In this document: piece after piece, positions 39,759-64,000 of the stretch
Position numbering within the stretch: position 1 is the stretch's first letter
How the letters are laid out: the number at the start of each line of letters is the position of its first letter
Assembly (NCBI GenBank): GCA_018262195.1
Contig: JAGTRS010000007.1
Coordinates: 124,001 to 188,000, forward strand
Source: Pseudomonadota bacterium
GTDB taxonomy: Bacteria > Pseudomonadota > Gammaproteobacteria > Burkholderiales > Rhodocyclaceae
Length of the DNA stretch: 64,000 nucleotides
Reading direction: 5' to 3'
Made by a program: the position numbers and the translations under genes
The notes under the pieces: model-generated
Told to the model about the DNA's origin: nothing
Seen by the model: the letters and a program-made list of their open reading frames with translations, nothing else
Databases searched by the model: none

Positions 39759-40416
39759 GCGAGCTTCTCCCGGGACGGGGTATGGACAAGGCGAGCGGCC
39801 GGGAAACCGGCCTGCCACGCCGCTTGATGATGCGCACCGACAATTCGTTGTCGCTAGCGGCCGGCGCCGGATTCAGCGTCAAGCGCAACGGTGCGGGTGA
39901 CGGCACTCGTGCGGCTGCAGCGGGACGCCATAAACAGGCAAAAACTGCTCGCCCCTCGGCGGCTACCTGCAAGCGACGCAATGCGCGCGCATCGATACCC
40001 GCCTCTGGCCAGGCCAGCACACCGGCAAACCCGCCACTGGCAAGCAATTGCTCGACACACCAAGCCACATTCTTGCCCGCTCGAACGATAACCAGCCGAT
40101 CCAGTGCCAGCCCGGCCGCCGCCCAGGCCGGCGCGTGCGGTTGCCATGGAGGGGCCACCAGTGCCAGCCAGCCACCTTCGGTCGACAATTTGACCAAGGC
40201 CGGCAACAGCAGACTCATTTCCCCGACACTGCTGTGATCAACGAGGATCTCAGTCAGATTTCCGCGTGGCCAGCCACCACCGGGCAACTCGGCATCAAGT
40301 TCACCATGGCCGCTGGGAATGGCGGTTTCCGGCAGGGAGGCCAGCGTGTCGCCGCGCCAGACATCGCCTCTGGCCAGCACATCCGCCAAAGCGACCGGCG
40401 ACGACATGGGGGTCAT
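39691..40416 (-). CDS. imuA: Translesion synthesis accessory protein ImuA
   Basis: A 241-residue RecA/SulA-like protein with [20 protein letters not shown] and [19 protein letters not shown], the family signature in which the Walker A glycine-lysine loop has been lost. ImuA is needed for DnaE2/ImuB-dependent mutagenesis. ATG 40416 overlaps the lexA stop by four bases. The basic, Pro/Arg-rich C-terminal tail overlaps the imuB start. Confidence 0.92.
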
Positions 40417-41018
40417 GACAGCTTGGAAACAGCCCCGCGAATCAGGCCGACGGCAATGCCTTCAATCGCGAAATCGACCTCTTCCGGATCGACGATGATC
40501 GGTTCGAAATCAGGGTTTTCGGCAATCAGTCTGATCTGGCCACCGCTTCGCTCCAGACGCTTGACCGTGACCTCCTCATCCAGCCGGGCGACCACAATCT
40601 GGCCGTCGCGCGCCTGATTGGTCTTGTGCACAGCCAGCAGATCACCATCGAAGATGCCGACATCGATCATCGATAGACCACGCACCTTGAGCAGGAAGTC
40701 TGCCTTTGGTGCGAACAGGCTGGCATCCAGCGCATAGCGGCCCTGCACATTCTCGACAGCAAGAATCGGCGAACCGGCAGCGACACTACCAATCAGCGGC
40801 AAACCAAGCTGCTCGACGAGGCGAATGCCTCGCGCCGAACCAGGTTCGAGCACAATGGCACCCTTTTTGGCCAGCGCCTTAAGATGATCTTCCGCTGCAT
40901 TGGGTGAAGCAAAACCGAAGGCGCTGGAAATTTCCATGCGCGTTGGCGGAGCACCGAGCACTTCCAGCGTACTCTTGATGAAGTCGAGAATTTCCTGCTG
41001 ACGTGGCGTGAGTTTCAT
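40413..41018 (-). CDS. lexA: SOS repressor LexA
   Basis: A 201-residue LexA. The winged helix-turn-helix is [20 protein letters not shown] with [14 protein letters not shown]; the autocleavage site Ala-Gly lies in VAAGSPILA; the catalytic serine in [14 protein letters not shown] and the lysine in VTVKRLER. It represses SOS genes until RecA-DNA triggers cleavage. A perfect LexA box 26 bases upstream shows autoregulation, and the imuA-imuB-dnaE2 genes behind it share that control. Confidence 0.97.
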
Positions 41019-41044: not shown

Positions 41045-41060
41045 CTGTATTTTTGTACAG
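41045..41060. promoter_or_regulatory. LexA box of the lexA-imuA-imuB-dnaE2 operon
   Basis: CTGTATTTTTGTACAG matches CTGT-N8-ACAG exactly. A -35-like TTGCCA lies just upstream on the minus strand, so the box would cover the -10 region. Confidence 0.92.
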
Positions 41061-53493: not shown

Positions 53494-53548
53494 CGGATAC
53501 CAGTACAGATGGGTAACGTGATAACCAGCACAGTTGCAAACTAACGCA

Positions 53549-53586
53549 ACTGTATTGATCACAATTTAACTTTATTGTGACTGTAT
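53549..53586. promoter_or_regulatory. Candidate MocR operator region
   Basis: ACTGTAT occurs at 53549-53555 and again at 53580-53586, 31 bases apart (about three helical turns), and a 7-bp inverted repeat TCACAAT/ATTGTGA spans 53559-53580. Direct repeats are usual for MocR sites. The region lies between the divergent MocR and DUF2917 genes. Confidence 0.5.
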
Positions 53587-53637
53587 CACCAACAATCATC
53601 GCCCTACACTCTCCTTACAACAAAAGAAGAGAGCGCC

Positions 53638-53961
53638 ATGAAAATCGATCTCGTTTCCAGCGAGCTAAACCTGACGAAGAGCCATCCGGTTCGCCTGTCC
53701 AACGCTCGCGGCGTATGCATTCGCTGTGTCAGCGGAACAATCTGGATAACGGCGCCAGACAAGCTTGCAGATATTTTTCTGGCACCAGGTGAAACGCACC
53801 GGATCGACAGCCATGGATTGGTGCTTGTCGAGAGCGTCAGTGATGGTCAGGTCCGTCTGGAAATGGCATCTAAAGGTAATGCGTTAAAGATCTTGCTGGA
53901 TTGGCTAAGGTGCGCCAGCGGAAAACGCTGGAACACCCAAATTACTGCCACCACGCGTTGA
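53638..53961 (+). CDS. DUF2917 family protein
   Basis: A 107-residue protein with the DUF2917 pattern: GVCIRCVSGTIWITAPDKLADIFLAPGE and HGLVLVESVSDGQVRLE, a small cupin-like beta fold. No catalytic motif is visible and function is unknown. AGAGAGCGCC precedes ATG 53638. It is divergent from the MocR regulator, a pairing that suggests it is the regulator's target. Confidence 0.8.
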   Translation: MKIDLVSSELNLTKSHPVRLSNARGVCIRCVSGTIWITAPDKLADIFLAPGETHRIDSHGLVLVESVSDGQVRLEMASKGNALKILLDWLRCASGKRWNTQITATTR

Positions 53962-54008
53962 GGGGAATCATGGGTATTAGCAAACGCCGAATTCCCGACA
54001 CGGAGAAA

Positions 54009-54221
54009 TCAATCGAATAGTCCAGGCTGCATTGGAACCAGGTTTTCCTGTTTGACCGTCAGGCGAACCGGCACGCCCTGCCGCCCGATGGCCTCGACCA
54101 CCATCCGGCCACCAGAAGCTTCGGCAATTACCCGGACATTACGGGTGGAATTGCTGCTCCGTCCACGATAGGTGGCAACCGTACCGGCGTTGGGCAGCCA
54201 GTGGGATTTTGTTCTGGGCAT
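54009..54221 (-). CDS. Small SOS-controlled protein with C-terminal clamp-binding-like motif
   Basis: A 70-residue basic protein with a strong ribosome-binding site (AGGGGG) before ATG 54221. The middle (RNVRVIAEASGGRMVVEAIG, VPVRLTVKQENL) looks like a small beta barrel. The last residues are MQPGLFD, in which QPGLF fits the Q-x-x-L-F form of the beta-clamp-binding pentapeptide (consensus QLSLF). A LexA box lies 61 bases upstream, so it is probably SOS-induced. No family is recognised; a clamp- or repair-linked role is inferred. Confidence 0.7.
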   Translation of the reverse strand: MPRTKSHWLPNAGTVATYRGRSSNSTRNVRVIAEASGGRMVVEAIGRQGVPVRLTVKQENLVPMQPGLFD

Positions 54222-54282
54222 CGCGTTACCCCCTGCAATCTGGACAACTCAAGGCTAACCTCGAATGCACAAAAATCGAATA

Positions 54283-54298
54283 CTGTACATCCATACAG
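54283..54298. promoter_or_regulatory. LexA box 1 between two small genes
   Basis: CTGTACATCCATACAG matches CTGT-N8-ACAG exactly. It is the closer box to the minus-strand gene (ATG 54221). Confidence 0.85.
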
Positions 54299-54331
54299 TT
54301 ATCAGTTAATCTCCACCCTGTTGCCAGGATA

Positions 54332-54347
54332 CTGGCTATTCATACAG
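54332..54347. promoter_or_regulatory. LexA box 2 between two small genes
   Basis: CTGGCTATTCATACAG differs from CTGT-N8-ACAG at one base. It ends 32 bases before ATG 54380 of the plus-strand gene, beside a -35-like TTGCCA (54321-54326). Confidence 0.65.
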
Positions 54348-54379
54348 TTGATTAACTAACAGTGACGGAGGCCTTCATC

Positions 54380-54544
54380 ATGGAACGCATTCAGAAACTA
54401 TTCGAACTGCTCGCCGGTATTTCCGCCGAAGAAGATGCCCGTCTGGCGCGGGCCAAGGCAATTTTTGCAGACACCATCCCAGACATCGCCGCACTGCAGA
54501 CTCCGGCCTGCTGGCGTAGAAAACAGCGCGTCGCCCTGCAATGA
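54380..54544 (+). CDS. Small putative SOS-controlled protein
   Basis: A 54-residue helical protein from ATG 54380, with GGAGG ten bases upstream; an in-frame ATG at 54362 precedes that ribosome-binding site and is unlikely. The N-terminal half (RIQKLFELLAGISAEEDARLARAKAIFADT) should be two helices; the end is basic (CWRRKQR). It diverges from another small gene, and the two LexA boxes between them suggest joint SOS control. No family is recognised. Confidence 0.6.
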   Translation: MERIQKLFELLAGISAEEDARLARAKAIFADTIPDIAALQTPACWRRKQRVALQ

Positions 54545-54568
54545 AAAAGGCGGCCGCAGCCGCCTTTC
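54544..54568. terminator. Terminator between small SOS gene and rhodanese gene
   Basis: AAAGGCGGC/GCCGCCTTT stem with a CGCA loop between convergent genes, with A and T runs at its edges. Confidence 0.8.
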
Positions 54569-54589
54569 AATTCCCGGTCGGGCAAGCGA

Positions 54590-55156
54590 TCAGAATTCGT
54601 CCTTGACGATCGGGAAACCAAGCGCATCCCAATCCAGCATGCCGCCACGGTAGTAATAAATCTTGTCGGCCGGGAAACCGTCACGCACCATGGCACTGAT
54701 TGCCGTCGGGCTTTGCGGACAGACCGGGCCATTACAGAAGGCATAAACCTTCTTGGCCTTGCTGCAATTCCACTTGCCGCCTGCCTTGCTGCAGCCCAGT
54801 TCATCCATGCGCCCGGCAACCAGGGTGTAAGGGATGTGATACGAATTAGGGATCGTGCCCTTGATCCGGTCATCCGGCTCACGCATGTCGACAATCAAGG
54901 AATCCTTGTCATTCATCGCGTGCAGCATTTCAATTTCGGTCACCGGATGCACACCCGGCACCGGAATCAGCGGCTGCAACCAGCCCTTGTTCTTGGCACA
55001 CGGCGTCATCGTGCGGGTAATGACAAACGGACCGCTCTTGGTCTGGACAACAAACTGCTTATCCTCACCGATAATGCGCAACAATTCTTTTTCCTGGGCC
55101 GATACCCCCAGCGCCAGCGTGGCAAGACCAGCGGCCATCAGAATATTCTTGAACAT
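54590..55156 (-). CDS. Exported rhodanese-like protein
   Basis: A 188-residue protein with a signal peptide (FKNILMAAGLATLALGVSAQ, cleaved near residue 21). The rhodanese-like domain occupies about 75-185: SLIVDMREPDDRIKGTIPNSYHIPY and the catalytic loop VYAFCNGPVCPQSPTAI, whose first cysteine is the likely sulfur acceptor. Extra cysteines (TPCAKNKG, LGCSKAGGKWNCSK) may form a disulfide. It would act in the periplasm; the donor and acceptor of sulfur are unknown. Single-gene unit. Confidence 0.85.
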   Translation of the reverse strand: MFKNILMAAGLATLALGVSAQEKELLRIIGEDKQFVVQTKSGPFVITRTMTPCAKNKGWLQPLIPVPGVHPVTEIEMLHAMNDKDSLIVDMREPDDRIKGTIPNSYHIPYTLVAGRMDELGCSKAGGKWNCSKAKKVYAFCNGPVCPQSPTAISAMVRDGFPADKIYYYRGGMLDWDALGFPIVKDEF

Positions 55157-55328
55157 GTAATTTCCCCTTTGATTTTATGTGTCATTCAGCACCACCAAAT
55201 AAGCGTGCGTTTATATATTAATTTATTAATTCATTTTTTTGCCAGTCTGATTTGTGACATTGAATGCCTATCCTCTCTTCGATAGCCATTTCCATCGCAC
55301 GGCCCTCTAAAATGCTGTGTAAAGAGAC

Positions 55329-62393: not shown

Positions 62394-64000
62394 TTAGCCA
62401 ACCCAGCGCCGCGCGTTGCGGAACATGCGCATCCACGGCGAATCCTCGCCCCAGTTTTCCGGGTGCCAGGACATCTGCACAGTACGGAAGACACGTTCCG
62501 GGTGCGGCATCATGATCGTGAAGCGACCATCGGCCGTGGTCACTGCCGTCAAACCATTCGGAGAACCATTCGGGTTGTACGGATAGACCTCGGTCGGCTC
62601 ACCCTTGTTGTCGACATAGCGCACGGCGGAGAGAACCTTCCCTTGATCTTCCGCTTTGTCGAATACCGCCCTGCCCTCACCGTGCGAAACGACGATCGGC
62701 ACTTGCGAGCCTTCCATGCCGGCAAAGAAGATCGACGGCGAATCAAGAATTTCGGTCATCACGAAGCGGGCTTCGAACTGCTCGACCTTGTTGCGACGGA
62801 AGGCCGGCCAATGCTCGGCACCCGGGATGATCGACTTTAGCGCGCTCATCATCTGGCAGCCGTTGCAGACACCCAGTGCAAAAGTGTCCTTGCGGTTGAA
62901 GAAGGCGGCGAACTCATCGCGGCAACCGTCGTGCATCAGGATGGTCCGCGCCCAGCCGAGGCCGGCACCGAGAACGTCGCCGTAGGAGAAGCCACCGCAG
63001 GCGACCAACCCCTTGAAGTCCTTCAGGCTGACACGGCCAGCCAGGATGTCGCTCATATGGACGTCGACCGAGGCAAAACCGGCCTTGTCGAAAGCGGCAG
63101 CCATTTCGTAATGACTGTTGACGCCCTGCTCGCGCAGGATGGCAACACGAGGACGGCCACCGACTTGCGTGTAGACCTGGGTGAAATCATCCTGCGGATC
63201 GAAAGTCAGCTTCGGCGTCAGGCCGGGATCGGCGACATCGAGGATGCGGTCGAATTCCTGCTGGGCGCAGCTCGGATTGTCGCGCATGGCCTGCATCTGG
63301 TAGCTGGTCTCGGACCAGGCACGCTGCAGGTCGACGCGCTTCTCGCGCAGAACGCGCTTGGCGTTGCGGGTGACGCGGATTTCGTTCCACTCGTTCATGT
63401 GGCCGACGAAGTGGTAAGGCACGCGCAGCGCACGCAACACCGTCGTGACCTTTTCACGATCAGCGCGGCGAATCTGGATCAGGGCGCCGAGTTCTTCATT
63501 GAACAGCGCGCGAACGATATTTTCGAAATCGCGGCCAGCCAGCAGGTTGGTCAGTTTCTCGGAACCATCGACATCACCGGCACCAGCGTCATAGCAGAGT
63601 CCATCGAGGTCGAGCGAAACACCGCGTCGCGTGGCGAAGGCCATTTCGCAGGCGGCAACGAACAGGCCGCCATCCGAACGGTCATGGTAGGCCAGCAGCA
63701 GGCCGTCGTGATTCAGCTTCTGGACTGCATCGAACAATCCCTTGAGCTTGGCAGGATCGTCGACATCCGGCGCATCGCTGCCGGTGGCGTTGTAAACCTG
63801 GGCCAGACAGGAGCCGCCGAGGCGGTTCTTGCCGAGGTCGAGCAGCAGCAGTTCAGTTTCGCCCTGATCGACGGCCAGTTGCGGCGTCTTGGTCTTGCGC
63901 ACATCGTTCACTGAGGCGAAGGAAGTGACGACCAGTGACAGCGGCGACACGACCTGCTTCTTCTCGCCGCCATCTTCCCAGGCGGTGCGCATCGACAGCG
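62394..64000 (-). CDS. purL: Phosphoribosylformylglycinamidine synthase, C-terminal part
   Basis: The frame is open to the right edge, giving about 535 C-terminal residues of a protein usually near 1300. PurL makes formylglycinamidine ribonucleotide in purine synthesis. Visible are the end of the synthase region ([20 protein letters not shown]) and the glutaminase domain with [20 protein letters not shown], the catalytic cysteine in [11 protein letters not shown], and the His/Glu in [10 protein letters not shown]. It is the large single-chain form of Proteobacteria. Nothing unusual is seen in the visible part. Confidence 0.96.

Follow-up and report, generated by a model that had tools for sequence, protein, structure and literature searches.

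Two divergent small genes of Rhodocyclaceae around a predicted LexA operator: a putative resident SOS gene and a neighbour apparently drawn under its control

Small genes that lie next to a LexA box raise the question of whether they belong to the SOS response and what their products could do there. We address it here for two open reading frames (ORFs) that diverge from a 158-base intergenic stretch within positions 54,009 to 54,544 of a 64,000-nucleotide piece of a Rhodocyclaceae genome (GenBank assembly GCA_018262195.1, contig JAGTRS010000007.1, positions 124,001 to 188,000), called the window below. A first-pass annotation, made from the letters alone, had described the genes, P0001 and P0002 (Table 1), as small and unrecognised, with 70 and 54 residues. 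This description was right, coordinates included: neither protein gave an above-cut-off match in Pfam, NCBIfam, PHROGs or PADLOC, the family members scanned (15 of P0001, 20 of P0002) had no Pfam family in common, single-member matches being scattered, and the best PDB sequence matches were insignificant (E 3.4 for P0001, 0.98 for P0002). Leaving their role aside, the two genes very probably form a LexA-regulated divergent pair. P0002 appears to be a resident SOS gene, and P0001 belongs to a separate family that seems to come under LexA almost only when back to back with P0002, an arrangement of Azonexus/Dechloromonas and close relatives.

The CTGT-N8-ACAG sequence and the one-mismatch copy that had been reported between the genes are both present. 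A LexA box is given as CTGTatatatatACAG in PMC3108266. One-mismatch matches to CTGT-N8-ACAG number 26 in the window, versus 16.1 expected from shuffles. As the bare pattern is weak evidence, we used a 20-base matrix built from the exact boxes that precede recA, lexA, umuDC, ruvA and dinB in this genome, with all five gene names read by eye and dinB recognised also by similarity. The lexA box, itself in the matrix, scored 25.5, box 1 scored 21.3 and box 2 scored 18.2, followed by the next 20-mer of the window at 11.7. Boxes 1 and 2 therefore rank second and third among the 20-mers of the window, with only the lexA box above them, and in 20 simulated windows no 20-mer scored as high as box 2. 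Their flanks are TA and TT. The imperfect CTGG form of box 2 is retained in near relatives, and the box is exact in other relatives. Box 2 overlaps the predicted P0002 promoter, the sole promoter-like match in 53500-55300 in a scan for which shuffles average 1.6, so that chance hits are expected. By eye, a plausible promoter on the minus strand (TTAACT-N16-TACAGT) lies under box 1, and both genes have plausible ribosome-binding sequences, GGGGG and GGAGG.

LexA control of the divergent region, predicted from these sites, is strongly supported by conservation. Our counts refer to distinct protein sequences from fetched loci with a profile E up to 1e-8, identical proteins being counted once. They leave out the ten P0002 places with the weakest matches (E from 2.6e-6 to 7.3e-4) as well as five places of P0001: the second copy of G621, a partial copy in G687 and weak matches in G777, G143 and G034. 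An exact box lies at -130 to -20 of the P0002 start in 70 of 85 homologues, and a box with at most one mismatch in 76 of them, while only 681 of 37,200 random 126-base windows from the same loci, true sites included, contain a box (1.8%). At least ten genera of the family have exact P0002 boxes, often near -85. P0002 is present in 24 of the 38 P0001 loci in named genomes, and all 24 carry an exact box between -80 and -97. On the side of P0001, an exact box precedes all 28 proteins encoded divergently from P0002 versus 1 of 38 solo proteins, a solo gene being one with no opposite-strand P0002 match within 600 bases (centre to centre); a few of these loci lie near contig ends.

The partnership is thus unequal, and the position of the boxes suggests to which gene the operator first belonged. 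A single box is found in the divergent pairs of L013 and L171 (which encode the same protein), L048, L093 and L167, at -85 to -102 of P0002. This place matches that of the P0002 box in other genera; we therefore think that the operator belonged to P0002 first and that box 1, by its position, would be the older of the two P0002 boxes. About 120 kb separates the two genes in Azonexus sp. R2A61 (G763), where P0001 has kept its place next to a MocR-like gene and has no box, and P0002, at its separate place, retains one-mismatch boxes only. P0002 represents a new LexA-boxed small-protein family and P0001 apparently a recruited neighbour, which looks drawn into the SOS regulon via the operator of the gene beside it; its box-less relatives provide natural controls. 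The only solo P0001 gene with an exact box of its own, at -80, is L182:4979-5197, whose protein is the same as that of L016, and independent recruitment to the SOS regulon is possible in this case. A third box-like site, CTGTCTAGATCGACAG and variants, was also seen in the P0001 leader, at -27 of the start (exact in L157, L158 and L161, with one mismatch in L165).

Both genes are real and under purifying selection. Measured for each gene against the 14 closest relatives listed, the ratio of non-synonymous to synonymous substitution rates (dN/dS) ranges from 0.06 to 0.18 in P0001 and from 0.05 to 0.24 in P0002, with high dS in some of these comparisons. Such low values indicate that both genes encode proteins. 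Over all pairs with dS between 0.1 and 1.5 the medians are 0.32 and 0.42, respectively, distant and thus poorly estimated pairs being included. Profile searches in genome samples drawn evenly from larger groups found P0002 in 68 of 395 genomes of the family and 9 of 399 of the order, the latter within the family except for two short partial matches; P0001 was found in 46 and 7, respectively, with one short match outside the family. In the 22 sampled genomes of the window's genus, its own included, P0001 occurs in 20 and P0002 in 21. The 38 P0001 loci in named genomes comprise 16 of Azonexus or Dechloromonas, 3 of Propionivibrio and 2 of Accumulibacter, the others being named at higher rank only; by record titles, the family with P0001 is Rhodocyclaceae or near. 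With E up to 1, 19 of 72,556 records gave distant P0001 relatives on plasmids, many of these matches being weak; the plasmids are from Paraburkholderia, Burkholderia, Mycetohabitans and Azospira. On Azospira plasmid pAZI09 (L042) and one Paraburkholderia plasmid (L045) the relative lies near a tyrosine recombinase (integrase) gene, without an upstream LexA box. P0001 had no relative in viral contigs or phage records, and P0002 had no match in phage records or plasmids, viral contigs having been searched with P0001 only. These searches lend a phage origin of the pair no support.

What could P0001 do? The first-pass annotation had noted that its product ends in MQPGLFD, where QPGLF fits the Q-x-x-L-F form of sliding-clamp peptides, and the motif is there, conserved only in part. 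Across 66 distinct homologues, L68 is kept in 66, F69 in 65 (with one W), P66 in 63 and Q65 in 49; the C-terminal L-F thus occurs in 65 and Q-x-x-L-F proper in 48. Where L-F is kept, 17 of the 65 proteins have a residue other than Q at position 1 (E in 8, P in 5, T in 2, M in 1 and A in 1). The tail ranks with the best conserved stretches of P0001, and none of the other 62 gene-like ORFs counted with it in the window has Q-x-x-[LM]-F within its 12 C-terminal residues. Such a tail is strongly constrained and fits a docking peptide. When the C-terminal tails of the proteins, L071 included, are split by control, Q-x-x-L-F is found in 17 of the 28 divergent boxed proteins versus 31 of the 38 solo ones (37 of these without a box). 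The form is rarer in the SOS-controlled set, and the constraint on the tail does not go with SOS control. Over all homologues, Q is replaced in about a quarter.

A connection with the polymerases of DNA damage tolerance had been proposed as well, through P0001 and the lexA-imuA-imuB-dnaE2 mutasome. A translesion link does emerge, through P0002 and dinB, and P0001 is not concerned in it. In G105, G141, G676 and G751, all of one genus, P0002 immediately precedes dinB (Pol IV) on the same strand; these are four of the eight genomes with a strong P0002 match in that genus and, over all genera, 4 of 61 searched genomes with P0002. We rejected dinB beside P0002 as a rule, for 52 of the 61 had a dinB match although only those four have the arrangement. 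The polymerase link is real, though narrow. P0002 followed by dinB behind a LexA box can be seen at L125:3031-4458, L033:1501-2928, L035:1501-2878 and L112:1797-3165 (minus strand). In G779 a second, box-less P0002 copy stands tail to tail with dinB. In the window's genome, dinB is found at another place on the contig, with a box to itself. In the window, lexA is followed by imuA, imuB and dnaE2, gene names read by eye. The small-gene pair shares a neighbourhood with these genes there and again on contig C19 of the same genome, which is syntenic.

Several observations weigh against placing the pair under LexA and near the polymerases. A box is missing from nine of the 85 P0002 homologues (L040, L041, L123, L124, L128 and L130-L133), which make up a branch not under LexA; they are divergent, being second or third copies (L041, L130, L131, L133) or coming from two genera (L040, L123, L124, L128, L132), and could serve as a natural contrast to the boxed members. 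The exact box pattern is not enriched genome-wide, with 37 matches versus 40 for a backward control pattern. Because the dinB neighbourhood was seen in one genus only, it may go back to a single event. Finally, Q is absent from the clamp motif in 11 of the 28 SOS-controlled P0001 proteins. If boxes and motif were due to chance and the ORFs were not genes, the commonness of the bare pattern in both window and genome would be accounted for; however, the matrix ranks, the box in all 28 pairs and the low dN/dS contradict this reading, which we consider hardly credible. Small adjacent genes with shared control, one of them with relatives on plasmids, could also be a toxin-antitoxin system or another obligate two-gene unit. 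Yet the genes diverge instead of forming an operon, PADLOC gave no match, 38 of 66 distinct P0001 proteins are encoded without an adjacent P0002, and a strong P0001 occurs without P0002 in 15 genomes and a strong P0002 without P0001 in 34 of 61, some of the assemblies being incomplete. We rejected the toxin-antitoxin pair on this separate occurrence, and a two-gene unit of any such kind is very improbable.

Two further proposals concern what each protein would do once made. P0001 could be an SOS-induced sliding-clamp ligand whose C-terminal QPxLF, seated in the DnaN pocket, shifts polymerase access. The near-invariant L-F, the Q-x-x-L-F form in most homologues, the constraint on the tail and its singularity among the window's ORFs agree with this. 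Nevertheless, Q is a hallmark of clamp peptides, and here it gives way to E, P, T, M or A and is less well kept than the Pro at position 2 (62 of 65); we know of no rule that a clamp motif needs Pro there. A different form, QAELPF, is found at the end of the Pol IV-like protein of this genome, and Q-x-x-L-F is less frequent under SOS control than outside it. We regard a clamp ligand as rather unlikely. P0002, small, LexA-boxed and lineage-specific, might instead be an SOS cell-division inhibitor replacing SulA. SidA is a precedent for a small division inhibitor, and so are SosA and YneA. SulA was not found in the window's genome, and neither P0002 nor the 20 family members scanned matched the SulA model (PF03846). 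Its matches in 46 relatives number 5, of which 4 exceed the cut-off; all fall in open frames of 238-478 codons, which would be long for SulA and may encode ImuA. However, the matches show no complementary distribution, occurring in 3 of 24 genomes without P0002 and 2 of 22 with it, and P0002 as a substitute for SulA was not adopted on the ground of distribution. Being similar with and without P0002, the scarcity of SulA is merely permissive. Unlike YneA-type proteins, P0002 has no hydrophobic segment by eye. A division inhibitor is, in our view, doubtful; the rarity of SulA matches nonetheless raises the question of the SOS division brake of this group.

For the LexA-regulated divergent pair, which we prefer on the evidence of the boxes, a simple mode of action can be pictured. 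LexA would occupy one or two boxes between the genes and shut both promoters, box 2 covering the predicted promoter of P0002 and box 1 the plausible one on the minus strand; after damage, RecA on single-stranded DNA (ssDNA) would trigger LexA cleavage and both small proteins would be made. LexA binding, induction, partners and function are here predictions from sequence. By eye, P0002 probably has a helical front, and it has a basic, well-kept end, P-A-C-W-R-R; its partner would most likely be a protein acting in damage tolerance or in the cell cycle. That it is a protein-binding damage-tolerance effector beside Pol IV or a stalled fork is our first, tentative suggestion; a cell-division brake comes close behind, and a RecA modulator or another role takes the remaining probability. 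P0001 is probably a small beta-barrel, SH3-like by the pattern of strands and turns, as read without a model. It would be a binding module whose conserved P-x-L-F tail may dock on a partner, the sliding clamp being one candidate, although not a likely one. Improbable as a whole is a lineage-specific, two-part SOS device for translesion synthesis, in which P0002 would regulate Pol IV, encoded next to it in Accumulibacter/Propionivibrio relatives, and P0001, brought under the shared LexA operator in Azonexus/Dechloromonas and seated on the clamp via QPxLF, would select the polymerase. Should P0002 act on Pol IV, on the fork or on division, it would offer a new handle on the limits that these bacteria set to mutagenesis or division when DNA is damaged.

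Several known systems resemble the pair in part. SulA, DinI, YebG and SidA are LexA-controlled small SOS effectors. YneA of Bacillus and SosA of Staphylococcus are likewise short, LexA-controlled and lineage-restricted. P0002 differs from such effectors in having no significant Pfam or PDB sequence match and, by eye, no membrane segment. C-terminal clamp peptides of the form QL[SD]LF or Q-x-x-L-F are known from bacterial Y-family and other polymerases. The P0001 motif sits at the same extreme C-terminal place, with L-F nearly always kept; it differs in the replacement of Q, in the better-kept Pro and in its carrier of only 70 residues. SocB of Caulobacter is a small replication toxin acting on DnaN. 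P0001, likened to it by description, is also small and is also proposed to act on the clamp; its frequent occurrence apart from P0002 is a difference. LexA-linked hypothetical genes, hypA and hypB, are reported for beta-Proteobacteria with multiple chromosomes in PMC3323433. P0001 and P0002 resemble them by description, as LexA-linked genes without known function in the same bacterial class. A search of open-licence papers by title and start of abstract found, among those listed, none on SOS-regulated small proteins of Rhodocyclaceae. P0002 would add to these systems an unnamed LexA-boxed family in environmental bacteria (Azonexus, Dechloromonas and relatives).

Table 1. Coordinates of the two genes and of the putative control elements in the window.
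Feature	Position	Strand or place	Description
P0001	54009..54221	minus	ORF; 70-aa protein with C-terminus MQPGLFD; undescribed family
P0002	54380..54544	plus	ORF; 54-aa protein, MERIQKLFELLAGIS...LQTPACWRRK; putative LexA-boxed small-protein family
LexA box 1	54283..54298		CTGTACATCCATACAG; 0 mismatches to CTGT-N8-ACAG; putative shared operator
LexA box 2	54332..54347		CTGGCTATTCATACAG; 1 mismatch; overlaps predicted P0002 promoter
LexA box of lexA	41045..41060		Comparison site; lexA at 40413-41018, minus
Sigma-70-like promoter	54321..54348	plus	TTGCCA-N16-TACAGT, for P0002; consensus scan 9 of 12; overlapped by box 2
Inverted repeat	54546..54567	3' of P0002	AAAGGCGGC-CGCA-GCCGCCTTT; possible terminator, by eye

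The inverted repeat behind P0002 was not among the three terminator-like matches of the scan. According to Pfam, the pair is flanked on one side by a DUF2917 gene and a GntR/aminotransferase (MocR-type) regulator and on the other by a rhodanese gene and a macro-domain gene, neighbours that suggest no function for it. Some solo P0001 genes of Accumulibacter and Propionivibrio relatives have neighbours identified by eye as rdgC (L174, L178, L179, L180), prfB (L174, L178, L181) or a GIY-YIG gene (L179, L180), not in an operon with them.

As to other box matches in the genome of the window, we opened 16 of the 37 exact ones and inspected their genes. Six (L187-L192) lie inside long ORFs and look incidental. 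A LexA-like box, CTGTGCATCCATACAG, at C25:24385-24400 (L008) stands in a region that looks by eye like a prophage or mobile element, with YedK/HMCES-like and resolvase-like genes. On contig C19 (L007), collinear pieces with 75-87% identity to the window take in the lexA-imuA-imuB-dnaE2 region and later genes, along with the MocR and rhodanese genes and the two small ones; one end piece of 121 bases matches 62394-62514 at 95%. We did not adopt this copy as a paralogue: given the collinear match at 75-87% and an assembly rated 9.95% contaminated, a contaminating congener is likelier than a true duplication. The small-gene pair on C19 has two perfect boxes.
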